This document shows, piece by piece, positions 11,710-48,846 of a stretch of 64,000 bases of DNA. Location of the stretch: assembly GCA_021234155.1 (NCBI GenBank), contig JAJEKV010000002.1, positions 39,729,841 to 39,793,840 on the forward strand, written 5' to 3'. The notes beneath the pieces are model-generated. The model had not been told where the DNA came from and did no database searches. It saw nothing but the letters and a program-made list of their open reading frames with translations. Positions within the stretch are counted from its first letter, which is position 1; each line of letters begins with the position of its first letter. The DNA is from Isoetes taiwanensis. Lineage: Eukaryota > Streptophyta > Lycopodiopsida > Isoetales > Isoetaceae. The position numbers and the translations under genes are program-made.

Positions 11710-12834
11710 TCATCTGCTAGCGATGGCCATCAACATAACCATGCGGGTTATCAATCATTACCTATTCTATACCATGTCTGCAGCACCATTACCTTCGCAT
11801 TAATAGAAATTTAGGCACCGGATTGATGAGCATAGCAAAATTTTTGAATGGGGTGAATCAATCTCGTCAGATCTTCAGTTCTGGAGCTCAGATTGTGAAC
11901 CTAAGGTCAATTCAACATGTTCCGACAATGGGCACTGTATGATTCCGACTCCTCCAAAACAGAAGCTAGGGAACATGCCCTAAAATAGAAACATTTGTGC
12001 TTCCTATTTTCAGTTTGGGAACTGGCTATAGACGCAGCCAGATTTGGCATGGCCAAAGGAGTCAATTCTACTCAAAGAATAATAGTGGAGTTGCAGCCGG
12101 ATTTTGCATGTAGAGCTACATTTGTGTACAGACTTAGACAAGCTTAAGAAGCTAAAAAAAACATTTGATAAAGCTGCATGCCCATGGATCCAGCCAAGCT
12201 GCATACCTCAACAAAGGTCCTGCGCCCTATTTTAGGGCTTAATCTTTTTTTTTTCCATCACGGAGAGTCTAGTTCGTTGCAGAGCTTGGGGTGCTTTTCT
12301 CAGGTAATACTACCATCTCGGTTGGGTTCTAAGGTTTAGGGTTCTGAAACCTCTTTGCTTTGTGCCTTTTCATTTATCCTAGAATTGGAACGTAGTTAAA
12401 TCCAAATGACTATCGTGATTTTATCACGACAAAGTTTTCAAAACCAGCTTGTCCATTATCCAGGCTTTGTTTCCTAGCATTAGGGCAGATTCGGAATCTC
12501 AAAATGGCCCATAACTTGGGTCAAAGAATTTCACGTCATATTTGCCGGCCAATCAGGTTTGCCCGTTTTTTACCAAAGTCTGTATTAGTTGGCAAGTAGA
12601 AAAATGAGCAGGCTTACTTGGCATCCACATGGTGGATTTTCATAGGGGATGTCCGCACATGCATTGCAGCAACATTAATGGCCCGTATTTTTTAGGAATC
12701 ATACCGCCTTCCAAAATAATGGCTACTTTGTCCGCCTCCATCTTATCAAGTTTTGGCGCCAGACTTCTCTACTGTTCACTCGGGCGTGTCTTCGTGCATC
12801 CTCTCCAGCTTCAGTCACTCTTCATCTAGGATCT
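11710..12834. other. No supported gene
   Basis: Non-coding sequence with T-rich tracts. A 66-codon ORF at 12629-12829 is followed by the BAH-like ORF but has no domain. It could be 5' untranslated sequence of that gene. Confidence 0.4.
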
Positions 12835-14073
12835 ATGTCTCATATAATCTCTGTATTGCCTCATGTACAGAACTCTCAAGGTGAAGAAGTGGGAGGTTTT
12901 GTCTCCATAGGTTCATGGGTGAGTATGCTGCCATCGACGAGGGGCAAGCATAGAGTTAAGCGACAATGGCGAGTAGACGTGTGGACCCATTGGATAGGGA
13001 GGGTAAAAGACTTCAAGTTGAATTCTAGCGGCCGGAAAGTGGAAAGTATGACAATACGACATGCGTACACCCCTTCTGATATGGCAAAAGAGCCTATCTC
13101 CACTAAAAATAGTTTCCAAAAATTACGCTCAAATGGTCCACCTTAAGTGGATCACACGACGTGAAGCTGACTGTCAGCTATTTAAGTGGCTACGACCAAT
13201 TTCGCATCGCGTGATCTCCTCATCTTTTCGTTTATTTCATGTCCTTGTCTTTATGAACATAATTTTTGTGCAGATTTATATTTATCAGACGTCGAGGATG
13301 TCGTTTCGGCCGAAAGCATTACTAGTATCCTTGTCGTCTACCACAAGGACATTGAGCATGTCCTTTTCCAAGGTATGGATGTTGTGGCATTCCGAGATAT
13401 GGGCATCTGGTGTTATGGGCATGATTACACCATAAAGGTTAGGAGACCTAGCTTGATGCTGATTGAATTGCCCCCTTTAAGTGAACTGTGTAAGCCACAG
13501 ACTAATGAGAACAATGTAATTGCAATGCAGAAATGCCTGACTGACGAGGTACAAGTGGGAATGTCTGAAAATGGAGGTGTGAGAATGAGTTTCAAAGTCT
13601 TCACACCATTCGAGGTATTTGCTAACATATTCCAGACGGCCTAGGAAGTTCGAAAAGCTCCGAAGACATATATGTGTTTTCTGCCCCCTGCTAAGTTTGT
13701 GGATGGCCTATTTTTCGGTCCCTCGTGGGACGTTCGATTCCACGAACCATTTGGTCAACTTACAAAGTGCCGCATAGTTAAGTCCTCTTTTAAGTTCAGA
13801 TATTTTCTTCCAAAACAGTATTTATATGTTAATTGTCAACTAGAACGCAGGAAACAGAAAAAAAAAAGAGGTTGCACATCTTATTGAGAGCCGTGAGGAC
13901 CATAACAAACACTCCGATGCGCTAGATATTCGAGTATGGCGAGGGGAGGAAGTCATTTATACAATACAATGGAAGCCGAATGGCCATTATCAGAACTAAG
14001 AGTGCTAATGGAGACGGAGGAGATTGCATCGGATTTTCATTATTTCATTGATGGTATTAGGGTTGGCTATTAG
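12835..14073 (+). pseudogene. BAH-domain protein, broken
   Basis: Two same-frame halves resemble one BAH (bromo-adjacent homology) domain, a chromatin-reader module. The first half (12835-13146) has SIGSWV, then WIGRVKDF and then MTIRHAYTPSDM. These match the BAH pattern 'YWIGRI...V.VRWFYRPED'. The second half (from about 13280) has ADLYLSDVEDVVSAESI and VVYHKD, matching 'NELF.SD..D.V..ESI.GKC.V'. Between them lie a stop, a 67-bp hairpin unit and a possible intron end (TTTTTGTGCAG before 13273). Downstream the frame has a stop at 13642-13644, a frame change at a poly(A) run near 13855-13868, and probably one more near 13970. The last reading frame stops at 14073. The C-terminal half is not recognised. 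A TATA-like start signal was not found. The domain call rests on motif order only. Confidence 0.6.
13150..13216. repeat. 67-bp hairpin unit H1
   Basis: Left arm GATCACACGACGTGAAG (13150-13166), right arm ATTTCGCATCGCGTGATC (13199-13216), unrelated 32-nt centre. It lies between the two halves of the BAH-like gene, so it sits in an intron or has inserted there. Confidence 0.8.
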
Positions 14074-14258
14074 GCAAAAGTGTAATGTAGAGTTCGCGAT
14101 CAACAAGAAATTGTCTATTGCTTAGCGATTTGAATTTCGTTTATTTTTTTATAGGGCTCCGTACAATTATTTAAAAAGTTATCAGTGTATTTTACGTTAA
14201 ACGTCCGTTTTTTACTATTTATCTCTTGCCAGCTGTCTCTTTCTTATCAGTGTGTGTA

Positions 14259-14266
14259 GTATAAAT
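14259..14266 (+). promoter_or_regulatory. TATA-like box of the H3-like gene
   Basis: GTATAAATC lies about 20-27 bp before the ATG at 14286. The position is close for a plant TATA element and would imply a very short leader; a further upstream start is possible. Confidence 0.35.
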
Positions 14267-14285
14267 CGCTATCTATTGAGAAGTC

Positions 14286-15140
14286 ATGGCTAGAACTAAG
14301 CAAACCGCAAGGATTCATCCAGGTGGTGTAAGGCCGAGTAATTACGTTACTCTGCCTCCTTCACCCGCTTCTGAAGTCTCTGATAGAAATTCTTCTCCTC
14401 TGCCTCTGATTATGCCTAACAGAAGGCCAGGAAAAGAACTCTGCATGACAGATGGTGGGGGGAGCAGCTCTCGAGTAACTAGGGAGGTGCATTCTGGTTC
14501 GGAGATAGAAGATGAAAATATGACAGATCGGCGATCAGAATATGACGCCGGATTGATTATTGGGCAGCCGGCTCTTCCTGCTCCTCCTGTGAATGATGCA
14601 GAAACTTCTAGTCAAAGAAGAAGAGCTCATCCAAGAAAGGGGAAGGCGACCAGAAATGTGAGGAGATGGTCGGAAGAGATGGTTGAGCCTGGAAATGAGA
14701 TGGGTGAGGGTAGTGGCCAAGGTGCAGGCGTAGAGCAGCCACAGCAACAGCCAGCAGAGCAAGAAAGAAGGAAGCGGAAGACAAAGCAGGGCATTAAAAC
14801 ACTATGCAAGATAAGGAAGTACCAGAAGAGCACTGACCTGGTTATTCCATGTCTCCCATTTGCTAGGTTTGTGAAAGAGATGTTGCAAGAATGTGGTACC
14901 ATATATAACTCCACTTACATGATTCAAGCAACTACCTTGAATGCTCTTCAAATGGCAGCGGAATCAGTTGGTGTTGGTCTATTTGAGGACTCTCAACTTG
15001 CAGCCATACATGCCAAGTAGGTGACTGTCATGCCGAAGGATATGCGCCTGGTCTTATGCATTAAGGATCCTGAGTACTATGGTCGTAATTTTGAATCTGC
15101 ATACAACAAGAAGAATGACCTGCCAGATCCTAAGGCGTAA
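14286..15140 (+). pseudogene. Histone H3-like protein with long novel N-terminal region, one internal stop
   Basis: The ORF begins MARTKQTAR, identical to canonical H3 through R8, then departs: K9 is replaced by I and K14 by V, with GG (12-13) kept. About 165 residues of low-complexity, Ser/Glu/Gln/Arg-rich sequence follow, with no H3 counterpart. A histone fold then starts near residue 175: IRKYQKSTDLVI (alpha-N), LPFARFVKEML (alpha-1), LNALQMAAESVGVGLFEDSQ (alpha-2), AAIHAK. A TAG at 15018-15020 replaces the Arg of the H3 'HAKRVT' loop, but the same frame continues with VTVMPKDMRLV and a C-terminal tail of about 28 residues to a TAA at 15138-15140. One nonsense codon is thus the only visible break in 285 codons. 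Canonical H3 is 136 residues. The long tail recalls CENH3 variants in size only; CENH3 does not keep ARTKQTAR. Function inferred: a nucleosome component or H3-tail mimic. Confidence 0.85.
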
Positions 15141-15230
15141 AGTGCCTTTGTATTTTATTGATATATTGATATCTATTATTAATATATTCTATTTTCTTAG
15201 TCGATTTCTTTCCTAGAAGATTAGTTTCGC

Positions 15231-15231
<1 letters not shown>

Positions 15232-15267
<36 letters not shown>
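15232..15267. repeat. Poly(T) tract of about 36
   Basis: Uninterrupted T run roughly 95 bp after the H3-like stop, followed directly by a hairpin-unit arm. Its length is likely to be unstable between reads. Confidence 0.85.
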
Positions 15268-15270
<3 letters not shown>

Positions 15271-15284
15271 TTAGGCTACGTCGG

Positions 15285-15298
15285 GATCACACGACGCG
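15285..15298. repeat. Half hairpin unit H2 (left arm only)
   Basis: GATCACACGACGCG matches the left arm of the 67-bp units. The expected right arm near 15334-15351 is not recognisable. It follows the H3-like gene, as other units follow other genes. Confidence 0.6.
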
Positions 15299-15357
15299 CA
15301 CCAAGCATTGTGCTCTTTTTTTGCACAGACTAGTTTTCAAGCCCTCACCCTAACCCA

Positions 15358-15960
15358 TGAAAGGTATTGATCATGTAATATTTTATAGTCTAAACCTATA
15401 GAGAAGAAGGTGTTATGTTATTCAGGAAAAATGCCGACTCAGTTGAAAGGGGAGATTGAAAGGAAGTTAGGCAGTGATCATTTGACATTGGAATCAAATG
15501 TTAAAAGTTAGCTTGAATGGTTATTGCTAAGTTAATGGCCTAGGTAAATTATAACCTAGGTCGTTATGGTTAAAGGTTAAAGGTTAAAAGGCACAGATTA
15601 GAATGCTTTAACCATTATAGAAGTGAAGGATAACGGTCGAATGGCTGAATGCCATGGTTGACCAAAATTCTGGCTAAGAGGTCGGTCAGGCTGATCGGCC
15701 AGACAGATCTTTATATAAATAAAGATGCAGGGTGTTTTTGGATCATCCTTGAGTATGCAGGAGATCGATTAAAGGATTCAAAGATCATGCTTGGGCTCTC
15801 GAAATATAAGTCAATATTGCCAATGGTTTGTGCAATGGTTATTTGAATTTAAATGATGGAGTATTTGAATGCCTTGTTTGATAATTGAGAGCATTTGCAT
15901 CATTAGTATTTGAAAATTTGTCTAGCCATAATCATTCTATTATCTAGGCATAATCCTTCA
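15358..15960 (+). repeat. copia 5' LTR (603 bp)
   Basis: Begins TGAAAGGTATTGATC and ends ATAATCCTTCA. It contains TATATAAATAAAG near 15712 as a probable TATA element. Against the 3' LTR I count roughly a dozen substitutions in 600 bp and two large length differences. This suggests an insertion that is old but not ancient. Confidence 0.95.
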
Positions 15961-15961
15961 T

Positions 15962-15974
15962 TGGTATCAGAGCC
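15962..15974 (+). other. copia primer binding site (tRNA-iMet)
   Basis: TGGTATCAGAGCC starts one base after the 5' LTR. It is the standard plant sequence complementary to the 3' end of initiator tRNA-Met. Confidence 0.95.
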
Positions 15975-15986
15975 AGCATTGTCATA

Positions 15987-17354
15987 ATGTCTACAAGATT
16001 TGGTGCAAATTTACTGACTTCCATTGAGGTGTTTAAAGGGGATAGTGGTTTTCAGATATGGAAACAAGGAATTAGGCAAGTGCTTGAATTTGAAAACTTG
16101 TGGTATCTCATTGATGGAGGACACACCAAAAGAACTTCTACAATGGCAAGATCAAGAAATTCTGTTGCAGGGGAGACTAGTGAAGCTTCAGTTGAAGGAG
16201 GAGGTACTGAGGTTCCTGTCAGCTCAAGAATGACTGTAAGTGCAGAACCAGATGATGAACTAAAGATAATGGAGGCTCAAGCTATTATAACAAGTAAGGT
16301 TGGCACTGCTATCAAGCTGAAATTAAGAGGGATGAGTCCAAAAGAGATGTGGGATTATATGGTAAACCAATATGAGATCAAAACTTCATCACAAATTGAC
16401 ATGCTTGAGAAACAACTTAGGAAGTTAAAGTTGTTTGAAAAGGACAATATGACTGATTATTTGGAAAAGTTTGACTCCATAATTGCAGATTTGGAGGGTG
16501 CTGGGATAATCCTAAATGATCAATATCAAATTCTGTCCTTGGCAAGATCTGTATCTCACAATAGTCAGCTGGGAACATTGATCAGAAATGTTGCTAGGTC
16601 CAAGGAGCACGCCATTCAAATGATTAGGACAGAATTTGAACAAAAAAATGTAGCGGATGACACGTCTGAAGTTTTGTATGCAAGGAAAGCAAAGAAAAGT
16701 GGAGGTTCAAGTAAGGACAAGCTCGGGCCTTGCTACAATTGCAATCAATATGGACATCTCAAATATGACTGCCCTAATGAAGGTAAAATTATAAAATGTT
16801 TCAATTGTGATGGGAAGGGGCATGTTGCTGCAAATTGCCCAAGTCCAAGAGGGGCTGTAGGAAGAGGTAGAGGCAGAGGGAGGTCTGCTAATCAGAGGGG
16901 AAATTTTGCAAGAGGAAGAGGTGCAAGCAGAGGTAATCCATCCTTGAATGTAGTCAAAGAGTCAGCAGCAAATGAAGAAGAGGACGAGGATGATACTGCT
17001 GAGGTAAGACATCTTGCTTTGACTATTCTATTCTATTCTATTTCAAATAACTTGCAAAAGAAGGTTAACAAAATGTTAATCATAGATTCAAGAGCTGAGA
17101 AAACCGTGACATGTGACCAAACTTTGTTGAAGAAATGCAAGAAAAGAGAAGCTGGCCATGTGCAATTAGGAGATGGAGGCTTGCAAAGGATTGAAGACAC
17201 TGGAATATTAGAAATATTTGATTTAGAAGGAAAAGCTGTGGAACTTAGAGATGTTTTGTGTGTCCCTGGCCTTGTGAGAAATTTGATATCAGTTTGTCAA
17301 CTTCTTGACTTGGGTTATAAAGTTCTTTTTGAAAAACTAGAATGTAAAGTGTAA
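15987..17354 (+). CDS. gag-pol: copia Gag and protease segment
   Basis: Open for 455 codons. Residues about 1-220 are copia Gag, with the usual 'MWDYMVNQYE...LRKLKLFEKDNMTDYLEKF' type core. Two CCHC knuckles follow near residue 250: CYNCNQYGHLKYDC and CFNCDGKGHVAANC. An Arg/Gly-rich linker comes next. The protease motif near residue 365 reads IIDSRAEKTVTCD, where active copia proteases have D-S-G-A, so the catalytic triad glycine is replaced by Arg. A (TTCTA)n-like run lies at about 17025-17042 inside the frame. Translation stops at 17352-17354; the same frame then continues as pol-like sequence to about 17475. The product would be the capsid polyprotein of the element. Confidence 0.9.
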   Translation: MSTRFGANLLTSIEVFKGDSGFQIWKQGIRQVLEFENLWYLIDGGHTKRTSTMARSRNSVAGETSEASVEGGGTEVPVSSRMTVSAEPDDELKIMEAQAIITSKVGTAIKLKLRGMSPKEMWDYMVNQYEIKTSSQIDMLEKQLRKLKLFEKDNMTDYLEKFDSIIADLEGAGIILNDQYQILSLARSVSHNSQLGTLIRNVARSKEHAIQMIRTEFEQKNVADDTSEVLYARKAKKSGGSSKDKLGPCYNCNQYGHLKYDCPNEGKIIKCFNCDGKGHVAANCPSPRGAVGRGRGRGRSANQRGNFARGRGASRGNPSLNVVKESAANEEEDEDDTAEVRHLALTILFYSISNNLQKKVNKMLIIDSRAEKTVTCDQTLLKKCKKREAGHVQLGDGGLQRIEDTGILEIFDLEGKAVELRDVLCVPGLVRNLISVCQLLDLGYKVLFEKLECKV

Positions 17355-20047
17355 CTTGGAAATAATATCAAGTTTATTGGCAAAAGAGTGGGGAACTTAT
17401 TTGGTCTTGATTGCAAGCACATTCCTAGTTTGAATGTAATTGAAACTCCATCTCTTAAAATTGGCATAATCGAATGTGCCATACAAACTTGGCAAATATT
17501 GACATTCTGATTAAAAGGGGTCTGATAACAGCAAATGGAGATGGAAATGAAAGTTTTATATGTGCGGGGTGCATTCTTGGGAAACAAACCAGGCTACCAT
17601 TTAGAAGATCACTCAAAAGGGCAAAAGGAATTTTAGATTTGGTGCACACTGACCTTTGTGGTCCCATAAATGTTACTAGTATGGCAGGACACAGATATTT
17701 TATGACATTCATAGATGACTTTAGCAGGAAAACATTGAGAACAAAATATCAAGCTTATGATGCACTAAAGCTATTTGTTGCTGAGGTGGAGCTCGAGACT
17801 GGAAGAAGAGTCAAATGTATAAGGTCTGACAGGGGAGGTGAGTATCTATCCCATGAATTTAAAAGGTTTTGTGCAAAAAGAGGAATTAAAAGACAACTAA
17901 CTTGTAGATACTCTCCCCAACAAAATGGGATAGCTGAGAGAAAAAACAGAACCTTATTGAATGCAGTTAGATCCATGCTAAAATATTCTGGATTACCCAA
18001 TTATGTTTGGAATGAAGCCTTGAACACTGCTGTTTATGTTCAAAACATCTTGCCATCTGTCAGTACAAAAGGAACCGTCCCTGAAATGTTATGGTCAGGC
18101 AAAATGCCAAGCTACAATGATCTTAAAGCCTATGGATGTTTAACATTTGCACATGTACCTAAACAATTGAGAAAAAAGTTGGATGATAGAACATACATTA
18201 CATACTTGGTGGGATATGACACAAACTCCAAGGCATACAGGCTATATGATCCAGTTCATAAAAAAATTATAGTGAGTAGAGATGTAATATTCGATGAGTC
18301 TCAGTTTTACAGAAAAATTCAAAAGGTAAATGTGACTGACCTAAGTGAAAGTGTGCAAGAAAACAAGGTGGAGCAGGAACTTGCTGAAAAAGAAGAACAT
18401 AAGAAGACTGCTGGAGATTTGTTTGATGACCAAGACAATGAAGATTCAATGCATGCTACTGCAGGGATGGAGGAAGAACATTTTAGCTTTGAAAGAGAGG
18501 ACCCTATGACACAGAATGAAGATGAAGAAGAGCAGCCACAGATTTTGGAAAAACAGAAAATAAGAACTAGAAGATCTGAGGCACAAATTTTAAGGGATGA
18601 AAATCAAGCAAATATTGAATTGCGTGGAAGGAATGAATCAGGGAGAAGCAAAAGACTTCAGCCTCATGAAGGTGAAGTCGAGAATATTTTTGATATTCTG
18701 GTATTGGAAAACTGTGACATACCAAGCAATTATGATGAAGCTATAAATGGAAAAGATTTTGAACATTGGCTTAAAGCCATGGAGGAAGAAATGCAGGCTT
18801 TTAAAAGAACAGGGACATATGAATTGGTTGAGAAACCACAAAACAAAAATGTTGTAGGGAACAAGTGGATTTTCAGAATCAAAATAGGGGCAGATGGAAA
18901 AACAAAGAAATATAAGGCAAGATTGGTTGCTCAAGGCTTTTTACAAAAAAGAGGAAAGGATTATGATGAAACCTTCTCCCCTTTGGTCAAAATAAACGGT
19001 TTGAGGATATTGTTGGCTATAGCAAACTCATGTGATTTAGAAATTCACCATATGGATGTAAGTACAGCTTTTTTGAATGCAAAATTAGAAGACGAAGTGT
19101 ACCTTAGACGAGCTCCAGGTTTTGAGGAAGGAGAAGAAAAAGTATGGAGGTTAAATCGAGCAGTGTATGGGTTGAAGCAGTCCCCAAGGGAATGGTACAA
19201 ATGCATGAACAATTATTTGAAACAACAAGGCTTTGAAAAATTAAATCATGATGGGAACTTGTATAGATTCCGAAATGGAGATGAATGGTGCATCATTGCA
19301 TTATATGTTAATGACAACATTATGGTGGCAAAAGGAACAGAAACATTGAATAAATGCAAGGAGATCTTGAATCAAAGATTCCAAATGACTGATCTTGGTG
19401 AATTAAGAAGATTTCTAGGCATAGAAGTATTCAGGGACAGAAATAGTAAAATCTTAGCTTTGAGTCAGCAAACACACATTGAAAATATGCTAGAGAGATT
19501 TGGAATGAAGAGCTGCAATGCAACAAATACACCTATAGTACCAGGACACAAAATATCCATGTCATTAAGTCCACAAACTCTTGAAGAGCAAAAACAGATG
19601 GAGGAAGTACCATATAGATCACTTATAGGATGTTTGTCATATGTTGCTAACTGCACAAGACCTGATATTGCTTTTGCAGTAAATCTTCTCAGTAGGTACA
19701 ATCATAATCCTAGACGAGCACACTGGATTGCAGCCAAGAGAATTTTGAGATATTTGAAAGGTACAATGCATGTTGGCATTATGTATAATAATTCCAGTGA
19801 CTTAAATTTGAAGGCTTATTGTGATGCTGATTGGGGAGGGAATCTTGACCAAAGAAGATCCACATCAGGTTATGTAATTGTCTTGGGAGGTGCACCAGTA
19901 GCATGGAAATCTAAAAAACAAGGAAGCATAGCACTCTCAAGTGCAGAAGCAGAATATAATTCTGCTTCATTAGCAGCAAAAGAGATAATATGGGAAAGGA
20001 GACTCATTAATGAACTTGGATTTTTACAGAACTGTTATGTACTGTGA
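17355..20047 (+). pseudogene. pol: copia integrase, reverse transcriptase and RNase H
   Basis: The main frame is open from 17474 (857 codons) after a frame change near 17475. The GAG-pre-integrase zinc finger is damaged: HTNLANIDILIKRG and CAGCILGKQ remain, but the upstream His is lost to the frame break. The integrase core keeps DLCGPI (first Asp), IRSDRGGEY (second Asp) and PQQNGIAERKNRT (Glu). After IDDFSRKT about four residues are missing. RT carries KWIFRIK, MDVSTAFLNA and, at the active site, YVNDNIMV instead of YVDDIL-type, so the second catalytic Asp is lost in place. RNase H contains AYCDADWGG and LSSAEAEYNSAS. The frame ends at 20047 and continues in another frame. Confidence 0.93.
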
Positions 20048-20300
20048 CAGTACTAGTTGTATAGCTATGTCAAAGAACCCTGTCTTGCATGAGAGATCAA
20101 AACATATTGAAATGCAAGTTCATTTTATTAGGGATGTGGTTGAAAAAAATCTACTGCATCTGACCTATATTAGTACAAAAGATCAAGTGGCAGATTTGTT
20201 TACCAAAGCATTGACAGCAAGCAGATTTGAAGAGTTGAAAAGGTTGCTTAATTGCTGTGACCAGGCAATATTACATGAAGGGGAGAATGAAAGGTATTGA
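20010..20300 (+). pseudogene. copia RNase H C-terminus after a frameshift
   Basis: This frame continues the preceding ORF. It has CDSTSCIAMSKNPVLHERSKHIE, given here in two parts (CDSTSCIAMSKNP, then ERSKHIE), and KDQVADLFTKAL. These are the conserved end of copia RNase H ('DN.SAI.L..NPV.H.RTKHI...Q.AD.FTK'). The frames overlap around 20010-20047, so a single indel there separates them. Confidence 0.9.
20277..20287 (+). other. copia polypurine tract
   Basis: GAAGGGGAGAA lies immediately before the TG of the 3' LTR at 20288, the expected position of the plus-strand primer. Confidence 0.9.
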
Positions 20301-21053
20301 TCATGTAATATTTTATAGTCTAAACCTATAGAGAAGAAGGTGTTATGGTTATTCAGGAAAAATGCAGACTCAGTTGAAAGGGGAGATTGAAAGGAAGTTA
20401 GGCAGTGATCATTTGACATTGGAATCAAATGTTAAAAGTTAGCTTGAATGGTTATTGCTAAGTTAATGGCCTAGGTAAATTATAACCTAGGTCGTTATGG
20501 TTAAAGGTTAAAGGTTAAAAGGCACAGATTAGAATGCTTTAATCATTATAGAAGTGAAGGATAACGGTCGAATGGCTGAATGCCATGGTTGACCAAAATT
20601 CCGGCTAAGAGGTCGGTCAGGCCGATCGGGCGGACAGATCTTTATATAAACAAAGATGCAGGGTGTTTTTTGATCATCCTTGAGTATGCAGGAGATCGAT
20701 TAAAGGATTCAAAGATCATGCTTGGGCTCTCGAAATATAAGTCAATATTGCTACAGTAATATGGTCAATGCAATATGAACAATAGAAATTCCAATGGTTT
20801 GTGCAATGGTTATTTGAATTTAAATGATGGAGTATTTGAATGTCTTGTTTGATGAGCTACAATAAAACAGCGTGATGAGCTAGTAGCCCCCGTCAGGGAG
20901 CTCGCCCATGCTACACAAGTCCAGTGGCCTCAGGGCATAAGGGACAATAATGTATTCTATTCTATTCTATTCTATAATTGAGAGCATTTGCATCATTAGT
21001 ATTTGAAAATTTGTCTAGCCATAATCATTCTATTATCTAGGCATAATCCTTCA
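20288..21053 (+). repeat. copia 3' LTR (766 bp) with an inserted LINE/SINE tail
   Basis: Same ends as the 5' LTR (TGAAAGG...CCTTCA). It is 163 bp longer for two reasons. A 40-bp segment near 20751-20790 is absent from the 5' LTR, and an insertion of about 123 bp interrupts GTTTGAT|AATTGAG. Confidence 0.95.
20853..20976 (+). mobile_element. Short retroposon tail inside the copia 3' LTR
   Basis: The insert carries GAGCTCGCCCATGCTACA, then GTGGCCTCA and GGGACA, and ends in (TATTC)4. The same sequence, reversed, forms the 3' end of the LINE at 62425-63190. It is therefore either a severely 5'-truncated LINE copy or a SINE sharing the LINE 3' end. It post-dates the copia insertion because the 5' LTR has the empty site. 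Confidence 0.85.
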
Positions 21054-21122
21054 ACTCTAACCCTAACCCTAACCCTAAAATATGATCCAAGCCCTTACCC
21101 TAACCCTAACTCTAACCCTAAA
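21054..21122. repeat. Telomere-like CCCTAA tract
   Basis: CTCTAACCCTAACCCTAACCCTAAAA, read as several CCCTAA units, with a second block at 21094-21121. The 5' side of the copia insertion has the matching CACCCTAACCC (15346-15356), so the copia element split one interstitial tract. Units are mostly CCCTAA rather than the plant CCCTAAA. Confidence 0.8.
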
Positions 21123-21564
21123 ATGTATGGACGAATCTCCACAATGGCTCTATGTATCCTTTCAAAATGGACAACGGCTACTTCAGTCTGCAGTTTTAGC
21201 ACCTTATCGCTTCTTCACATCTTTTTTGCCTTCTGCGTCTACTTCGCCATGGATTGTTATGTCAAGTTTTTGGAATGGTATGCACCTGCCCCACATGCCA
21301 ACGAGGAAGTTGTGGCGACTGAGATTTATCCTCTCTATTGCAAGGAAATCGACATCATGGGAAACAATGGCGAGCTCACATGCTACCGCGATGTTACTTT
21401 AGGTTTTAGCCTGAGTGCGTTAGCTCAACGGACGTGCTTTGCAGATGTTTCTGGGGTGTGAATTCCGAAACCATCTTTAGAGGAAGCGACTTCCCATTTG
21501 TAAGGATCCAAGACTTTCTTCAAGAATGCGGTGCAACGGGCTCCGCCGGGATGCGTGCTTATAC
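21123..21564 (+). pseudogene. Unidentified plus-strand ORF with a hydrophobic segment
   Basis: From an ATG at 21123 the frame gives a hydrophobic stretch (SLLHIFFAFCVYFA) that could span a membrane, then MDCYVKFLEWYAPAP and LTCYRDVTLGFSLSAL. The frame stops at 21459-21461. A neighbouring frame then carries protein-like sequence, ETIFRGSDFPFVRIQDFLQE, to a stop at 21562-21564, suggesting a frameshift near 21430. An alternative start is the ATG at 21249. It matches no family I know. It lies between the copia element and the acidic-protein gene on the same strand. Confidence 0.4.
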
Positions 21565-21574
21565 TTAAGAGGTA

Positions 21575-22649
21575 ATGTATATCTCTTTGCCGTTTGCATT
21601 TGCTAGTTATTGCATTTTGCTCGGCCAAGCCAATGAAAAAATGGAAACAATGAAATCATTAAGTCAAGGTGGGCCAGTTATGTGTGATGATGAAGACGAT
21701 GAGATAGAAATGGTAATAGATCTACAGGAAGAAGAGCAAGAATCTAGGAAAATTGACCTGGACGCATTGGCCTTGTGTGAAGCAGACAAGGAAGATGATG
21801 ACGAGGAAGATTCTGAAGAGGATGAGGATGAAGAGAGGTTGTCTGACATAACGCCAATTTTGGTGGAAGGAAAGGAATATTTATTGTTAAGTGATATACT
21901 GAGTAACCCGTCTTTGCTACGTATGTGTACGAGGGAAGACGAAGTTATCAGTACTTTGGCTAAATGGGTACAACTTTGTAGAGGACCTCGACAAAGAAAT
22001 ATTTGAAGTGTCATCTTCTACTGGTAATGCTATAGATCTTAAAATAGCATATGCGAGGCTACAGACTCGTTGTGCTGAAGAGGAGCAGAATCTGCAAACG
22101 GACGAAGAATTTCAACGTCTTCGTTCAAAGCTGTCAACATCATCTACAGGCTTGCAAGGGCCTTCAGTCAATCGCGGTAGCATAAGCCTCATGGATTTTG
22201 AGAGATTTGAAGAAGATAACCTTGAGGTGTCTTATTTGTGGGAAGTCGATGACTTTTCTTGCCCACATGCACGAGGCTGGCATGAAAGATTAAAGGACTG
22301 GACTCTGCTGCGATATATTTCAAGATTCAGGAATGGAGAGATTATCATCTTCAGCAGAACTTTCAGTCCAAAAGGGGCGGAATTTGTGTATTACATTCGT
22401 GCATTGTGCATGTTCGGCAAGCATTCTTGTTTGGCATCTAACATCGAAAGGGATATAGCAATTAGGGATGTCGTGTTAGAATATTTTGATGACCAAGCCG
22501 GTCTACATGTGAGTATTATGTTAAATTTCTTAGCAGCTGGCTTGAATCACCCGAGGTTGGAAGCTGGGCTCGATAACATGGGAGTGATTCCCATGCTAGA
22601 TCAGTTCGGAAGGGGATTGAAAGAGCAGGAAATTGAAGATGAAAGTTGA
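21575..22649 (+). pseudogene. Acidic protein, unknown family, frameshifted
   Basis: The first frame (21575-22006) has an acidic region (DDEDDEIEMVIDLQEEE) and a second Asp/Glu run around residue 75 (EADKEDDDEEDSEEDEDEE), then LLLSDILSNPSLL. The second frame, open to 22649, continues with EDLDKEIFEV just upstream of 22008, so one indel near 21975-22000 joins them. The downstream part (about 210 codons) has a mixed, folded-protein composition, including HERLKDWTLLRYISRFRNGE and IERDIAIRDVVLEYFDDQAG. I do not recognise it. Acidic tracts of this type occur in histone chaperones, which would suit the neighbouring H3-like gene, but that is inference from composition only. Confidence 0.5.
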
Positions 22650-22984
22650 AAAATGGTAAGTTATGTAGCAATAACATTACGTTTTATGTATCAATAAAAT
22701 TATGTAGCAATAAAATTACGTTATCTATCATTGAAATTATTTATATCAGAAATGTTATTTGTATTTTATTTGGTAAAAATTAAATATTAATGGGAAAAAA
22801 ATTTTCATTTCTTCACACGACGCGAGAAGTGACGGTCCATCTGCCTGATTAACGACATTCTTCACATCTTGTGACATAAGCTATTACGAGATTTAAGAAT
22901 CATGTAGCACTTCCGCTTTCGTTCCTCTTCCGATCTTCCACTTCCTCCCTTCCACTTGCGCTCCTCTTCTGCCTCCTGCTCACG
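22650..22984. other. Spacer holding hairpin unit H3 (22812-22876)
   Basis: AT-rich spacer with several near repeats of ATGTAGCAATAAAATTA at 22660-22720. The hairpin unit has left arm TTCACACGACGCGAGAAGT (22812-22830) and a right arm around ATTCTTCACATCTTGTGAC (22858-22875). The right arm is more diverged than in other units. It lies about 108 bp before the next ATG. Confidence 0.65.
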
Positions 22985-23386
22985 ATGGCAGCTGCATCTC
23001 CATCATCTTCATCTGCATCTCCATCATCTTCTAGCAAGCGGCCACGCCAGAAACCCCTCTGGCCCGCCCTGAGCTCCCTGTGGACATCACCCTTGCCGTG
23101 GTGATGAAGAGATTCAAAGATTTACAAAGAGAACAGTCGTCTGGCAGCTGAGAATATCTTGGCAGTGGACAAATTGTCCTTTACGAGAGGGCTTCTTCAT
23201 GAGCGAGACATCGAGCTCGCAGAAACCTTCACCTTATACCAAGAGGCAAATCAGCACAGGGCCAAGGCAGTTGAAACTGCCCACAATATTTCTTTGGCCC
23301 TAGAGGATATGGAGAAGAAGCTCCGACCTGCGGAGGACGAAAATGCAGCTTTAAGACTTCAGCTAGAGGATGAGGAAGATCCATAG
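22985..23386 (+). pseudogene. Coiled-coil protein, paralogue 1, frameshifted
   Basis: The start MAAASPSSSSASPSSSSKRP is Ser-rich. A frame change near 23050 restores a segment PELPVDITLAVVMKRFKDLQ. Another near 23135 gives AAENILAVDKLSFTRGLLHE and then a heptad-like region (AETAHN-type, ALEDMEKKLRPAEDENAALRLQL) ending at a TAG at 23384-23386. The PEL.(V/A)DI.L.V.MKR.K block aligns with the two genes downstream at 24181 and 25134, so the three are paralogues. About 130 residues; role unknown. Hairpin units flank it on both sides. Confidence 0.55.
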
Positions 23387-23477
23387 GCAATATTTCAATG
23401 TATTCATCTTGTTTTTATTTCAATGTATTTTTTGTATTTCAATGTGTTCATCTTGTTTTCGAAAGTTTGTGTCAAAG

Positions 23478-23567
23478 ATCACACGATTTTTTTTTTCAAA
23501 GATCACGCAATGCAAAATGCCATGTTTGCAAATAAGTAGCACACAATGGATTTCGCGTCGTATGATC
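23478..23567. repeat. 67-bp hairpin unit H4 with an extra left arm
   Basis: Left arm GATCACGCAATGCAAAAT (23501-23518), right arm ATTTCGCGTCGTATGATC (23550-23567); total 67 bp. A second, partial left arm, GATCACACGATT, lies just upstream at 23478, before a T run. Confidence 0.8.
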
Positions 23568-23699
23568 TCCGAAGTGTATACCTTGTCTCCTATGTACATT
23601 TTCCTATCTTATTAATCAAACCTTTTGTAATACAAATAACTTGCTAAATGTTGCTAAATCTTGCTCAATAAAGGCTGTTTAGCTTACTTATTCTTCGAA

Positions 23700-23766
23700 G
23701 ATCATACGACGCGAAATGCCATGTGATCACAAAAATTGCACATACCTTATTTCGCGTCGTATGAGC
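23700..23766. repeat. 67-bp hairpin unit H5
   Basis: The best-preserved unit: left arm GATCATACGACGCGAAAT (23700-23717), right arm ATTTCGCGTCGTATGAGCTC (23749-23768). The 18-bp arms are almost perfect and the 31-nt centre is unrelated to that of other units. Confidence 0.9.
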
Positions 23767-23997
23767 TCACATATCTCCATGTGATGTGAATCATGTACAT
23801 GCAAAGCATGTGGCATATGGATTTATACGATGGCAGCATGCAAAGCAACTGGCATAAACGTGGTATTTTCATTGAAGTTAAATAAATTTGATTTTTAAAG
23901 TAAATGCGGTTACTTGCGCGGCCATGATGGCGTCGTATTTTGTACGGCCTGTCCATTGATAAGATGGGCTTGCACATCATACCATTGGCATCTGACG

Positions 23998-24063
23998 GAT
24001 CCTATGATGCAAGCATTGGATGTCGTTGCCTATATGTATGCTATCATTTCGCCTCGTATGATT
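23998..24063. repeat. Hairpin unit H6 (66 bp)
   Basis: Left arm GATCCTATGATGCAAGC is diverged (23998-24014); right arm ATTTCGCCTCGTATGATT (24046-24063) is close to consensus. Confidence 0.65.
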
Positions 24064-24120
24064 TTATTACACCAACTTTATAGGTAATGGCAACCGTATA
24101 TGCCAACGTATCTGTAGCCT

Positions 24121-24128
24121 CTATATAA
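24121..24128 (+). promoter_or_regulatory. TATA box before coiled-coil paralogue 2
   Basis: CTATATAAAG lies about 55 bp before the ATG at 24181, the normal distance for a TATA box plus a short leader. It suggests that each cassette could have its own RNA polymerase II promoter. Confidence 0.5.
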
Positions 24129-24180
24129 AGCATTGGATGCCATTGGTTCAGCCATCTCCCTTTCGATCTCATCTCTTTCA

Positions 24181-24621
24181 ATGGCCTTCAGCTCCAGCTC
24201 CATCCCTGCCGAGATTCTGTCTCAAGTTCTAGTGAAAGAAATGAAAAACATTCGTGCCCAAACCAAGGAGCAAATTCGGCTCCTCAAAGAGAAGAATGAT
24301 GAAGACGTCGCCAAGTTGATGGCGGCAGAGGACAAGACCATCTTCTACATGGAGGTCATTCAAGTGCGGGACAATCAGCAGGCTACAATAGACTGCGAAT
24401 TGCGCGCCACAAGGTTTAACCTCTAAGAGAGGCATAGGGCCGCCATCGAAGCGGGTGAGGCTGCTCGCGTTCAATTCGATGAGTGAGAGGACAAGCTTGC
24501 AGAGTATGAGAACGTGGTTGCCGGGCAGGCAATCTTGTTGGAGGAGCAGAACAGAACCATTAATGCCCTTCAGCAAGAGCTTGCCCGCCAGCAAGAACTT
24601 GCCCGCGGCCACTCTCGCTGA
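24181..24621 (+). pseudogene. Coiled-coil protein, paralogue 2, two nonsense codons
   Basis: The reading frame runs 147 codons from MAFSSSSIPAEILSQVLVKE to a TGA at 24619-24621. It is broken only by a TAA at 24424-24426 and a TGA at 24484-24486. The N-terminus is Ser-rich, then PAEILSQVLVKEMKNIRAQT, equivalent to the PEL..DI.L.V.MKR.K block of the paralogues. The rest is charged and helical: LLKEKNDEDVAKLMAAED, then AEYENVVAGQAILLEEQNRT and ALQQELARQQELARG, a likely coiled coil. No known family. Hairpin units H6 and H7 flank it at 118 and 160 bp. Confidence 0.6.
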
Positions 24622-24780
24622 CACTCTCGCTCCCGCATCCGGCGCCTGCTAGAGGGGCCGTTCTTATTTAGTGTTTGTAATTAGTTTTGTTTCGCAATCG
24701 AAAAAGTGTTTTAGAAACATGTGCAGAATATTAACTTTTGCCTATTTTTAATTTTCCATAACGTATAGCACGACAACAGG

Positions 24781-24847
24781 GATCACATGAAGCGAAATCC
24801 TACGCTAGGTTTTGAAGAGCGGGTCAAGTTTTTACGTGCTGTGATAC
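24781..24847. repeat. 67-bp hairpin unit H7
   Basis: Left arm GATCACATGAAGCGAAATCC (24781-24800), right arm TTTTTACGTGCTGTGATAC (24829-24847), with several mismatches between arms. It follows coiled-coil paralogue 2. Confidence 0.7.
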
Positions 24848-25133
24848 ATTGAACTTAGAATAGTTAATTTGTTCCAGCGGACAGTAAGTGTGTGTTGACA
24901 GTCTTCCATTTAAATGGATCCATACCTTTACACATAGTATCAACAGAATCTTACCAAAATCAAATGATCCGCCCCGCAGGTGTGACAACGGCGGACTTTA
25001 TTTGATATGGTCAAGAACAATATACATATAAATTGAGGTCGTGGCAATGGCCTTGCAAAATTCTAGGTCCGGTTGGAATACTAGCGTATTCTCTTCACAT
25101 CTAACATCTTTGCGTCTTTCAGGTTTGGCATCT

Positions 25134-25540
25134 ATGGCCTCTTTATCCTCCACTGCTGAGAAACGAAAACGCCCGAGTCCAGAACTCTCTGCTGACATAG
25201 TTTTGGGTGTTCTAATGAAGAGGTTGAAGGAGCAAGATGATCTTTTAAATAGCAATGTCAAAATCATTTGGCAGAAAGAAGAACAAAATGGATTCAACCT
25301 GCTCATGCTTCAAAGCCAGGAGAGGCATATCAGGCGGTTAAATAGAAGGCTAGACTGGAGAGGAAGGTTATGCCCCAACAACTGCACTGAGGTGGTGTTG
25401 ACAGCAACGAGGTTGTGGCAGTGGCACGGGAGCGGGACCTGTACAAAGATATGGTAGACCAACTGAAGAACTATTGGATGTTTTACTTGCGTGCCTAAGA
25501 AGAGGAGACGGAGGAAGAGCTCGCATTGGAGCAACAATGA
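25134..25540 (+). pseudogene. Coiled-coil protein, paralogue 3, frameshifted
   Basis: Starts MASLSSTAEKRKRPSPELSA and keeps the family block ADIVLGVLMKRLKEQDDLL, then QSQERHIRRLNRRL. A frame change near 25350 gives ARLERKVMPQQL, and another near 25400 gives VAVARERDLYKDMVDQLKNY to a TAA at 25496-25498. The frame then continues as EEETEEELALEQQ to a TGA at 25538-25540. I chose the ATG at 25134 because its Met-Ala-Ser context matches the paralogues; the frame is also open from 25041. TATAAA at 25026-25031 could serve as a TATA element for the upstream start. Role unknown. Confidence 0.55.
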
Positions 25541-25617
25541 CTTGTTCTGTTTTGTTCTCGAATGTAACAATTTTTCCAACTTTAAACAAAGTAATTTTTT
25601 TATTACTGTCCTGAACA

Positions 25618-25684
25618 GCATCACAACACGCGAAGTCACATGAATGCAAATAATAGCAAATATGAATTTTCGTGCCATATGATC
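25618..25684. repeat. 67-bp hairpin unit H8
   Basis: Left arm GCATCACAACACGCGAAG (25618-25635), right arm TTTTCGTGCCATATGATC (25667-25684). The arms are diverged but in register, and the unit follows coiled-coil paralogue 3. Confidence 0.65.
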
Positions 25685-25691
25685 CAAATAT

Positions 25692-25758
25692 GATCATATG
25701 ACGTGAAAGTACAGCTATGCAAATGACGACGTAGACACGTACTTCGCATCGTGTGAAG
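25692..25758. repeat. 67-bp hairpin unit H9
   Basis: Left arm GATCATATGACGTGAAAGTA (25692-25711), right arm TACTTCGCATCGTGTGAAG (25740-25758). It starts 7 bp after H8, so two units stand back to back at the right edge of the array. Confidence 0.8.
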
Positions 25759-25831
25759 CACTATGCATTACAAGTAGGCTTTACCGATTCTTTGTCTCTT
25801 AGATTTCCAGTCTTGCAATGCTTGTGGGGCC

Positions 25832-28015
25832 CTACAACATTGCTACACAAGCTTCCGTTTCCTTGTTCAACATTATGCCAATGGTGTTTACCACTTCTGG
25901 GTTGCTCCTTAAAGCCACCTTCTTGTCATATTTAGCCATCGCTCTTCTATAGAACCACTCTGTCATCTGTCTGAGGGGGGTTGGTTCCCACATTTCCATC
26001 CCCTCTTTAAGTGTTCCGATGAAAGGATATTTTAGCTTATGCGACTTCTCCATGCCTTATGCACTTCAGACTGCTAGGCTACCATACTTCTTAAAAACCC
26101 AAGGTGCATGAGCCCAAAAGATGTGCAAATAGTGCGTGACTTCACTCTCTCCCCATGCATCTATGTAAGCCTTAATAAATTTGTTATTCGCTTGGACAAA
26201 TATTTCTGCATCTTCTTTTGTGAGGTCCATTCTTTGAATGTATGGGAACAATTCAGACAATGCATCACATGCTTTTTTTTTCTCAATGCGAAACGAACGC
26301 CATCTGTGCGGTCTTGTTCTGCATCAACCAGCAATTTTCCATATTCATAGACCTTTTCAACCATACTATTTTTGTTGGAAGCCTCTTTATTATTCTCCAT
26401 GAAGCATCATGCTTTCACTCCTCCAATTGACAGCTTACGAGGCACACTTGTTCTTCCTGACCTTTTCTCATCGAGTTCTAATTTGACATTCCCACCATGC
26501 AAACCTGCTTCTGATAAAATCTGCTCAACTCTACTAATTCCTTCCTCTATTTTCTTTTTGTCTGGAATATTCCACACGAATTTGCAGCTCAAAGATATCA
26601 TCTTGTCGATGATTCTCACGAAGTCGTGCAAAGTGCAGATATGGACCTTCTCCAATGGAATGGGGAAAATACCATGGAAATTGGGATCCTTTTCTCCTCT
26701 AATAGGAGCATTTGCTTGATTAAGGGACAATGTTGAAACTGTCCTCCCAGTAGTTGACTTCCTTGCATGATTGCAGTAGAGACAACTTTTGCAAGTTCCT
26801 TGTCCTCCACCCCTTATGTTGTACATTGGTTTCTCAGTTTTTAAATCGGAGGCCAAGTAAAAGATGACTTTGTAAGAACCATATTGATCTACTTGCAGTT
26901 TTTCCCCTCCCTCGAATCTGGATATTATATTCGTGATGTCAGTTTGGCTAAACACCCATTTCAGCACCTCGTGTGTCTCTTTCTGAACTTTAAGGAGACC
27001 TAACCACCAGGTGTCATCTTCAGATTGACATGAGAACCATTTCTCGACGGCCTTTTTCTCCATGTCTGCCACCTCTACATCTTTGTTGCTATTCATGTCG
27101 CTCTTTGATTTAGCATGTGCAATTGCATTCTCAATTGCTCTGTTCATGATGTCAATGGATACCCTCTCATACTTCTCAAACTTGGTGAGTTCCATTTCAT
27201 CCAATTTTATACAAACTTCAGTCTCACCATTGGTTTCTTCAACTGTTAAGTCGTAATATTTGACAACGAATTGTAGGAGACCAACTAGGCCAAGCCAAAG
27301 ATTGTTTCGTTCATTCATACCGACTATATCACAACAATCTTTGCCATTCTTATCCTTTATGGCTATGGCAGGCCCAGCACATTCAACGTGGTGCATCTCT
27401 CCTAATATGGCATACACCATCTTTGTCCTAGTAACTCTTGTATTCTCAACAATTTGTGGATGTGGAGCAAATACTTTGTTTGGGCCCATTGTTTTCAATG
27501 CTTCGTGGAATGGCTTGAACAGAGAATGGTAACCAAGCCTACGAATGCCTACATCGCCACAAACAGTCTGGACCTGCCACTTCTAGCTTCTTGTATATCT
27601 CTTCTAGTACCATTTCCAATACCATCTTCTTTAGAGAAGAATTGTAAGGCTGGCGAATCATGTCCACTATCTCCTTGTTTGTCGCTAGGTTTTTCAATAC
27701 GTAACCAAGATTGCTTCTAGTTTTGCCACATCTTGATTGGCCTTTGCTAGTGTTGTAAACACACCTTGAGGCCGTGACCCTGTGTCTGAATGCACCTGCT
27801 CCAAACTTCAGTTCCTCTATCTGTCGAAAGTTCTTCTTCCTCCCTCGCAAGCCAAGCGGTGTCTTCTTCAAATTTCTTAACCTATACTGAAGCCCAAAGT
27901 TTGCTTTTTTTAGCTCTTTGATCTTTTTCTGCAGCTGTCCTATTACCAATTTGGGCTTGTCCACTTCGTATCTCAGAGAGTTTTTTCTCTCGAGGCCATC
28001 ACTCCTTTCCTTCAT
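25832..28015 (-). pseudogene. Broken minus-strand gene, possibly transposase-like
   Basis: Four ORFs read leftward as one decayed protein. From the start (28015), a coiled-coil segment (VIGQLQKKIKELKKANFGLQ) is followed by a basic region. The frame changes near 27570. The 363-codon central ORF (26407-27498) contains YNIRGGGQGTCKSCLYCNHA, a Cys-rich knuckle, and IPLEKVHICTLHDFVRIIDK. The last parts give YLHIFWAHAPWVFKKYGSLA (26066-26260) and GMEKSHK (about 26053). The combination '(I)PL..V...LH...R..D' plus 'Y.H....H.P....KYGSL...QG.EK' recalls a family of uncharacterised ORFs that is abundant in invertebrate genomes and behaves like a mobile-element product. I could not identify DDE residues with certainty. 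It is on the opposite strand to the hairpin-punctuated cluster and could be an independent insertion. Confidence 0.4.
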
Positions 28016-28795
28016 TACAGTGGAGTAATGAAGCGAAAGAAAAAAAGCTGCTGGTTTAAGTTATAACTCTATTGTGACAATTGGAAACAGCTCCTCTCAA
28101 GAAACTGTATTCGATTCTGAATACCTTCATCGTCTCTTAATCTCTCACAATATCCAAGGAGGCCAGAATTACCGTCACCACAAAATCGGACTAAACTTGA
28201 CACGTCCCGAAATAACGGTTTCTTACCACTTAACGGATCCAATGGATGTAAACTGCCATCCGTCCAGATGTCGATACTTTTTGAGTCTGTAAGACACACT
28301 TATGCACATATCTTTGTACTCATTTTGGGGTCCCCAACCTAATGTGCCATGTGGGTAAAACATGAGGTATTGAAGTGGTTCCTACATAGGATCAAGAATG
28401 CTCATAAAGGTTGGTTCCCCTTGATTTTGTAGCCAGACACCAACGATCTGAGGCCTAATGTCGGCCGTGTTATTGACTTTGGCAATGGTCGCAATATCGC
28501 TTGCAATCGCTCCTTCAATTGTTATGTATGCTAATGACATGTGCATGCTATCCATAGTCCAGAGATTTCAAGTAAATGGATTTATCTGATCAAGGATTGA
28601 ACCGATAATTGCAATCCATTGGTATGGCACCCTCTCATTTTGCGCCTGCATGTAGCGTTGTGACTCATCATAGATATACCAATGTATAGGATTTCCAATG
28701 TCTGTCATAGGAAGTAGTCGATGGTATGTGCGACCAGTAATCGTGAGGGATGATGGAAAATCCAGATTCACAAATCCATCGTCATCTTCGAGCAC
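28016..28795 (-). pseudogene. Possible 5' continuation of the minus-strand gene
   Basis: Two short ORFs (28069-28299 and 28568-28795) have protein-like composition, for example DIWTDGSLHPLDPLSGKKPL and TDIGNPIHWYIYDESQRYMQ. They read in the same direction as the gene that follows. They may be upstream exons or decayed N-terminal parts of it. No domain recognised. Confidence 0.3.
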
Positions 28796-30289
28796 ACTAA
28801 AGCAAAATAATTTATTCGCTTTTCTGGCTTCTGTATTAAAATGTGTTCTACAAGTTATTTAATGTTGGGGGTAAATGGTGTAACCGTGGCAACTGTTATC
28901 TCCCATTATTGCAAGAAAACCCATCTTGCTCCAACATTAAGTAGTGGGATCTGGCAATAGGTGCACCTTCATTCCATGTGAACATCATGTAAGCTTGATT
29001 TATTGCAAAACTCATATGCGTTGTACGAGCTTGCCAATGAATTGAGTGTCCTTGTTCTGGACCCTCCATTGTGTAGCATTTTGTACACTGTATTTAGAAA
29101 TCTCTAGACTATGACTGCGTGGTGCCTAATCTGGTCACATCTACGAAGTAAGTTTGTCTTTAGTTTGGAACTTCAAATTTAAATTTTGGCAAAATATACG
29201 ATAAGCAAGTTTTGTTGTTTGCATATTCAAATGAAAAACTGAAATCATCGTATGAATACTCTAGGAGCTAAATACCATTTGAAAATTTTATCCTATAATT
29301 CTATGTTTTAGATTGCATCATTTATAAGCTTTGACATATTTTCACACACAACTTTAAGATGGTAATCATGTGCAAGCTAAGAAACACGATGCTAGAAACT
29401 TCCTTAGTATGATGCTCACGACATGTTCAATGTTTGAATGATTATGTTTCGGACAAGCCTTGTCTATATTGGAATCTTCTTCTCCCAAGTTTTGAATGTT
29501 ACCCAAATGATATATTTGTATATATCATATGAAGAAATTATTGGGCATCCTGCTCAATATATTAAATGTGCATAGATCCACATACTTCTTCTTCACATGT
29601 TATATGGTTAGTAATTGGAATCTTATTTTTCAAGGCCCCATTTCAGCTCTACGCACGTACCTTTTGGTTCCAAATACTCATTCGTACGGGCTGTCTTTTT
29701 GTTTTTTTCATTCTTTTTCAAACCCAAAAACACACCATCTCCATTTTTTTCACAAAACGGAACTATGGCTATTGATCTTGAAAAGAAAGCGTCTAAGCTC
29801 CTCCAGAATGCAAATCATTGCCGTAGCCAGGAGCTCCAACTCCGATGCCCGATACCCTGTTTGTGAGACTGTTGCAAACAACCACCCCAAATGCATGAGG
29901 AAGGGATAGACCACGAACTGTAGCAAAAAAAAGTAGCATGTAGTATTCAATGTTTGTGGATATAAAGGATTTCCTTTTATTAGCTTCAAGATCCAACTCT
30001 ATATAAAGGTTCCTCCTTTATATTTCAATAGTCCATCTTTTTCTATTGTTAGTTTGATGCCGTAATAATATCTTCTCAACTCTAAGATATTTCAATGGCC
30101 CTTAGGTAAGGTCCTTAAAACCAATGGTCCATCCAAAAATAATAATTTTTTTGATTAAGAAATTTTTCCTTCAATTAAAATTTTGAAAAAAGCATTTGCC
30201 CAACGTAATTGGTTGAACAAGCGCATTACATTTATTTTGTTTTCCTTTGTTCTTTCTTGTATCATTTTGTGCTTCTAACATTCTTTTTT
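28796..30289. other. Gene-poor AT-rich interval
   Basis: No supported gene. A short frame at about 29765-29864 (MAIDLEKKASKLLQNANHCR) has a plausible helical start but ends after 33 codons. It could be a gene fragment; I would not call it. Confidence 0.4.
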
Positions 30290-38869: not shown

Positions 38870-38880
38870 TTCTCCCCACC
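38870..38880 (-). other. gypsy copy 1 polypurine tract
   Basis: TTCTCCCCACC on the plus strand, i.e. GGTGGGGAGAA on the coding strand, immediately before the LTR TG. The same tract is at 50494-50505 in copy 2. Confidence 0.85.
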
Positions 38881-41264: not shown

Positions 41265-41345
41265 TGCACTCTAGTTGTCGAGGGGATGCCTTGAAAGCGC
41301 ATCTGCTACCACATTGAGCTTCCCGACTTGTAGACTATATCAAAG

Positions 41346-41942: not shown

Positions 41943-42025
41943 CTTTTACATTGGCGGGCGGACACTTCGACAACTTGGCGCATAACCGGTGCCTCTTCAA
42001 CTTTTCTAGCACCCTTCTCAAGTGT

Positions 42026-48843: not shown

Positions 48844-48846
48844 GCA

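Follow-up and report, generated by a model that had tools for sequence, protein, structure and literature searches.

A dispersed element of Isoetes taiwanensis with a predicted RAG1-like transposase gene carries palindromic units of near-fixed length between its genes

In the lycophyte Isoetes taiwanensis, a stretch of 64,000 nucleotides of contig JAJEKV010000002.1 (positions 39,729,841 to 39,793,840, forward strand, assembly GCA_021234155.1; hereafter the window, counted from its first letter) holds an array of same-strand genes punctuated by palindromes of near-fixed length, as had been proposed from the letters alone (hereafter the sequence-only reading). The point missed by that reading is that the whole array is part of one copy of a dispersed element whose ends form an inverted repeat. 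The copy and its features are the following.

12478..28326, plus strand: decayed copy of the element, right end incomplete, split by a Copia insert (15339-21096) that is not part of the element
12478..12508, plus strand: left terminal inverted repeat, CATTAGGGC..., with the tip found in six other copies and, in inverted form, on the right side of five
12679..13644, plus strand: BAH-like gene, predicted intron at about 13138-13273
13150..13216, no strand: unit of 67 bp in that predicted intron, slot present in six of seven copies
14286..15020, plus strand: H3-like gene, stopping early relative to intact copies (PF00125, E 8.9e-19)
15285..15302, plus strand: lone left arm, remnant of a decayed unit, partner arm present in three of seven copies (C301, C327, C985)
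21575..22649, plus strand: gene of unknown function, two open reading frames (ORFs) in the window, present in the copies too
22811..22876, no strand: unit of 66 bp from the paired-arm scan, slot present in copies
22985..23386, plus strand: coiled-coil gene 1, frame-broken, related to genes 2 and 3
23501..23567, no strand: unit of 67 bp from the paired-arm scan, slot present in copies
23700..23766, no strand: unit of 67 bp from the paired-arm scan, near-identical unit and left flank at loci L094 and L095
23998..24063, no strand: unit of 66 bp from the paired-arm scan, slot present in copies
24181..24690, plus strand: coiled-coil gene 2, with stops, related to gene 1
24781..24846, no strand: unit of 66 bp from the paired-arm scan, slot present in copies
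25135..25542, plus strand: coiled-coil gene 3, frame-broken, open at locus L117
25619..25684, no strand: unit of 66 bp from the paired-arm scan, slot present in copies
25692..25758, no strand: unit of 67 bp from the paired-arm scan, slot present in copies
25810..28060, minus strand: RAG1-like transposase-like gene, broken, convergent with coiled-coil gene 3

Seven further copies, retrieved as stretches of at most 10 kb, were compared with the window (C301, C17, C57, C327, C907, C952 and C985). Their collinear matches begin at 12473-12478 in the six that reach the left side (C301 was not reached) and stop at 28298-28326 in all seven, with a gap at 15339-21096 that is filled in the window by the Copia element; the remaining nearby matches are to Copia or to separate repeats. 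The ends are an inverted repeat of about 31 bp beginning CATTAGGGCGG, and across the seven left ends read, window included, the flanks are unrelated up to the point where the element begins with CATTAGGGC. The other copies extend about 750 bp past the right limit of the window copy, and in five of the seven the right tip is the left sequence inverted, C17 and C57 having no tip; all 12 ends read (seven left, five right) start with CATTAGG. Two clean copies measure 11,631 bp (C907) and 11,764 bp (C327) from tip to tip, while C985 (13,669 bp) and C952 (19,596 bp) hold extra DNA between their tips. The seven copies are 82.5-94.3% identical to one another, and the window copy is 74.5-81.3% identical to them. 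No target duplication longer than 2 bp was detected in the four copies with both tips, two of which hold extra DNA; C327 and C952 have 2 bp in common at their tips. The element is very likely a DNA transposon that would move by transposition, and it is predicted to be mobilised by the RAG1-like transposase that it encodes. No description of it was found in the open-licence literature.

The array is collinear among the compared copies apart from a part missing from C57 (from about 15.1 to 22.7 kb) and a coil-1 stretch that is doubled in C301, C17, C327, C907 and C985. This conservation of order bears on one analogy drawn in the sequence-only reading, by which the units are attC-like recombination sites between gene cassettes. 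Palindromes standing between genes, together with the stretch doubled in five of seven copies, are what such sites could produce, but the doubling is explained by ordinary tandem duplication, the array is otherwise collinear, and no integrase was noticed by eye among ORFs of at least 140 amino acids, no profile search having been made; we consider this explanation very improbable.

Five database relatives of the transposase-like gene were found, P0121 to P0125, all from short contigs. The AlphaFold model of P0121 is of low confidence (predicted local distance difference test, pLDDT, 54.8; predicted template modelling score, pTM, 0.48), and of the first 14 matches in a structural search with it, HzTransib was number 13 and all the others were RAG1. 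The best E value was 1.9e-5 and the 11 matches at E of 0.001 or less were all RAG1, with template modelling (TM) scores of about 0.2 and large root-mean-square deviations; from rank 15 down, E exceeded 1. When the C-terminal piece of C301 was compared with PDB, 13 of 13 weak sequence matches were RAG1 chains (E 0.34-1.5), and the Pfam RAG1 profile matched P0125 (E 0.0038) and locus L104 (E 0.16), both below cut-off. Sequence and modelled fold together suggest that the transposase is likely, though not proven, to be of RAG1 type. No RAG2-like gene was recognised in the element, no search for one having been made.

The spliced translation of the BAH-like gene matched PF01426 with an E value of 0.0043 and 17.4 bits, under the cut-off of 30.8, and the gene of unknown function at 21575..22649 had no Pfam match. 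The name coiled-coil stands for the analyst's reading of the sequence; the score of gene 1 against gene 2, like that of gene 1 against gene 3, was attained by none of 1000 shuffles, and genes 2 and 3 were related at P 0.037 by shuffling. A genome search for the H3-like gene, in which 150 of 5,357 candidates were scored, gave at least 157 matches, at least 11 of which, besides the window's own, span residues 1-244 without a stop. Two of these open matches were read (291 and 284 amino acids); they start with MARTKQTAR and MARTTQTAR and their H3-like region is complete. The H3-like protein has a long extra tail region, and its best named protein matches, mostly from plants, are at about 50% over 31% of the protein. 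Which genes are open varies by copy: coiled-coil genes 1 and 2 in C301, gene 3 in C952, and the H3-like gene at C1048 and C1028.

Eight inverted units of 66-67 bp and one half unit are present in the window. A scan of its 64 kb for paired arms at spans of 60-75 bp, with 40 Markov-randomised windows as the null, gave the eight units scores of at least 33.1, against 14.4 for the next-best window pair and a null maximum of 19.8, and the half-arm taken by itself had 7 window matches at up to three mismatches, where 0.03 were expected and none of 100 shuffles got to 7. In a leave-one-out model seven of the eight stayed above the null maximum; the unit at 24781 fell to -1.5, having been scored solely in the wrong 67-bp register, its best register being 66 bp. 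The eight units named in the sequence-only reading are thus all recovered and, at the threshold used, none lies elsewhere in the window, as it had said. Its near-constant lengths also stand, with a shift of 1 bp at one end of three units; the best register is 67 bp at 13150, 23501, 23700 and 25692, and 66 bp at 22811-22876, 23998-24063, 24781-24846 and 25619-25684. The lone left arm reported at 15285 is confirmed, three of the seven copies having a partner arm there, and the unit at 13150 does lie within the BAH-like gene, in a predicted intron and not in coding sequence. All other units are outside genes, two of them between the convergent coiled-coil gene 3 and transposase gene. At the eight window units we detected no flanking duplication beyond a GATC that belongs to the arms themselves, in agreement with the earlier statement that no constant target duplication is visible. 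An Rfam scan of the window returned one tRNA, the matches near units being all far under the gathering score.

Over the 28 pairs of window units, identity was 0.727 in the arm core and 0.305 in the centre, and conservation, at about 0.7 in the arm core, is down to 0.24-0.33 beyond the limits of the unit; the earlier claim that each centre is different holds with the reservation that four centres are partly alike. The same arms can be followed in the seven copies, where a search allowing spans of 62-72 bp gave 64 units, 63 of them falling in 11 slots (13150, 15285, 22750, 22811, 23501, 23998, 24781, 25619, 25692, 28419, which is upstream of the transposase gene, and another close to the right end) and one (in C57, near 15051) being dropped as unassigned. 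The window unit at 23700 occupies a further position outside these slots, L094 and L095 having a similar centre and flank. Between copies, units of the same slot are alike in arms (0.908) and in centres (0.882; 175 pairs). Between slots, compared through the best-scoring unit of each, arms are alike at 0.761 and centres at 0.513, against 0.509 for shuffled centres (55 pairs); the unselected values of the window, 0.727 and 0.305, agree with this contrast. Since arms and centres drift alike within a slot and only arms and span agree between slots, arms and span appear to have been held during the evolution of the element, before its copies spread, as would be expected of two DNA sites read together.

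The genome was searched over 1,658,258,908 bp in 1,110 contigs, where the half-arm with up to two mismatches had 1,474 matches (742 forward, 732 reverse) and a reversed control pattern 20 (9 and 11). Spans were sampled at 80 loci, taken from the head of a list of 100 exact half-arms once the two in the window had been set aside, a sample biased to well-kept arms; an inverted partner at a span of 58-74 bp was present at 67 of the 80 loci, 61 times at 67 bp, five times at 66 and once at 65. Element DNA was matched over at least 300 bp by 75 of the 80 loci, the exceptions being L026, L046, L062, L073 and L091. L026 is the same place as L018, which L073 and L091 match at 87% and 92%; because L018 shares with the element a transposase piece (72.6% over 168 bp of the window's) and right-end pieces, these loci are taken as a diverged relative of the element. 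This relative (L018, L073, L091) carries a unit too, of 66 bp. At L046 and L062 the match to the element is limited to 98 and 170 bp.

That the units could be a very short family of miniature inverted-repeat transposable elements (MITEs), inserted repeatedly into an ancestor of the element and then carried along, must be weighed against these distributions. A defined unit of 66-67 bp with inverted arms, one copy of it in a predicted intron, and arm decay of CpG type are all in keeping with such a family, and neutral MITE decay was indeed favoured at first for its CpG-type changes; it was lowered by the comparisons of arms with centres, within the window and between slots. Centres at the shuffled level beside arms well above it would not result from the decay of one sequence; moreover, the eight window units lack flanking duplications, and the copies have flanking sequence of the larger element in common (its DNA contains 75 of the 80 loci, three more are in the diverged relative, and two have the short matches of 98 and 170 bp). 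The sequence-only reading had held that thousands of genome-wide copies with target duplications and no link to these ORFs would make the units a plain MITE; half-arms do occur 1,474 times, but they are linked to these ORFs, a test that came out half. A MITE origin is accordingly improbable.

An action at the RNA level, also raised in the sequence-only reading, would have each unit transcribed and folded as a hairpin at which the transcript ends or is processed, in the manner of the mimivirus hairpin rule. Each of the five array genes listed is followed by a unit no more than 200 bp from its stop (P 0.042 by permutation), two units stand between the convergent coiled-coil gene 3 and transposase gene, and folding gives z below -2.7 for four of the eight units in the window, though for no more than these four, a result that is weak taken alone because the folded units come from decayed copies. 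However, the arms do not co-vary, neither within the window (pairing is as good or better in 450 of 500 shuffles) nor among 13 hand-picked representatives (score attained by 202 of 500 shuffles), which is the outcome of a check proposed in that reading; the arms are also conserved in sequence, for which a hairpin has no need, and one unit lies in a predicted intron. That pairing is not maintained through compensatory change speaks for a reading of the arms at the DNA level, and we regard RNA 3'-end signals as possible but doubtful.

The units could instead be internal binding sites through which the element's own transposase, or an accessory protein, carries out or controls transposition, like the subterminal motifs of some plant DNA transposons. 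A motif repeated many times in an element that has a transposase gene would be natural under such a role, but the units are spread between genes along the whole element, and in the outer 160 bp none of the 12 ends had an arm-like motif above background (lowest P 0.12); internal transposition sites are thus unlikely. An arm-like motif about 50 bp inside the left end had been suspected and did not rise above background over these 12 ends.

The reading that we prefer, with a probability of roughly one half, is that the units are paired binding sites of a predicted gene-boundary factor. Each unit would offer two inverted binding sites to one putative protein, encoded by the element or by the host, and the arms (core TCAYACGACGCGAA) and the span of 65-67 bp would be kept because this protein reads both arms as DNA. 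The bound site may act as a boundary, terminator-like or insulator-like, that keeps transcription units apart, and after insertion the copies would lose this constraint, with arms and centres drifting alike.

Several observations weigh against such a boundary role. One unit is in a predicted intron, and the association with gene 3' ends is weak, the five-gene list having been compiled post hoc by the analyst; upstream of genes no association with units was found (two of five genes, P 0.95). The centres at 23501, 23700, 25619 and 25692 share a partial likeness, slots 13150 and 15285 include copies of 68-70 bp, and 13 of the 80 exact half-arms had no partner at the score used. The choice of the best-scoring unit per slot inflates the arm identity between slots, and the units were found by their arms. 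Finally, of 25 changes at CpG positions in 17 window half-arms, 18 are of the deamination type, as in plain neutral decay.

A wider version of this proposal can be offered tentatively and is, on balance, unlikely as a whole: a plant lineage of RAG1-type transposons would carry its own chromatin kit together with boundary elements, i.e., paired 14-bp sites at a fixed span of 67 bp between genes, bound by its own proteins, which would build element-specific chromatin domains keeping genes apart and expressed. The kit, as doubtful as the version it belongs to, would consist of an H3 variant whose tail is the canonical ARTKQTAR, a reader of BAH type, and coiled-coil proteins with basic stretches.

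The insert that splits the window copy is a Copia-type long terminal repeat (LTR) retrotransposon with gag and pol ORFs at 15358-21053, whose best named protein matches are at about 32-45%, mostly in plants. Its right LTR holds about 120 bp that are not in the left one, with similar sequence at 62430-62543, and an AACCCT-type repeat tract, a telomere-like sequence, adjoins it at 21054-21121. Elsewhere in the window, 37193-50481 and 48847-62043 are the two copies, 89% identical, of a tandemly duplicated stretch of about 13 kb, and a minus-strand ORF at 28568-28858 has no Pfam match, though we presume some resemblance to the N-terminal sequence of Helitron helicases. A viral origin was considered and rejected, the transposase, the second ORF of the unknown gene and the second ORF of the BAH-like gene having no relatives in IMG/VR. 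Likewise, among 14 IMG/VR stretches with one exact 15-bp arm core, the best adjacent partner-arm score was 4.1; the full palindrome pattern had no match in viral contigs, and 22800-25800 of the window had none in phages.

The units amount to a natural experiment: in one element, eleven slots combine common arms and a common span with unrelated centres, and copies probably number in the hundreds. It can be asked there which protein reads a palindrome of this paired kind, and whether gene boundaries are something that a transposon brings with it. They resemble MITEs as short inverted-repeat DNA in many copies, but differ in being part of a larger element, with slot-specific centres and no duplication. 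In mimivirus-type 3'-end hairpins, palindromes likewise follow the genes of a compact array, but the units keep arm sequence and span, with no co-variation. The subterminal motifs of En/Spm-type transposons are also repeated within the element in both orientations, whereas the units are not found near the ends, are always paired and are spread between genes.

That a DNA transposon carries H3 is not new in itself, since the excerpted text of one study describes a fungal hAT transposon that amplified histone H3 (PMC6710886). Both are DNA transposons with histone H3 sequence in many copies; as far as that excerpt goes, the fungal copies were inactivated by repeat-induced point mutation (RIP) save the original, while H3-like frames of the present element are open in several copies and its H3-like protein has the long extra tail region. 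RAG1-type transposons bear on how V(D)J recombination arose, and those RAG-like transposons that the excerpted text of PMC7204232 describes are of animals; if the assignment is true, a relative in a lycophyte, its cargo histone-like and BAH-like, would extend both their range and the idea of what DNA transposons carry. The animal elements begin with CAC and nearly always show 5-bp duplications, according to the same excerpt (PMC7204232). The present element is like RAGL and Transib of animals, as portrayed there, in its predicted transposase fold (from a low-confidence model) and in its inverted-repeat ends; it is called RAG1-like, and not filed as RAGL or Transib, because it starts with CATTAGG. 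Relative to that account it differs in having CATTAGG and not CAC at its ends, in the absence of a 5-bp duplication in four copies, and in carrying histone-like, BAH-like and coiled-coil genes with internal palindromic units among them.

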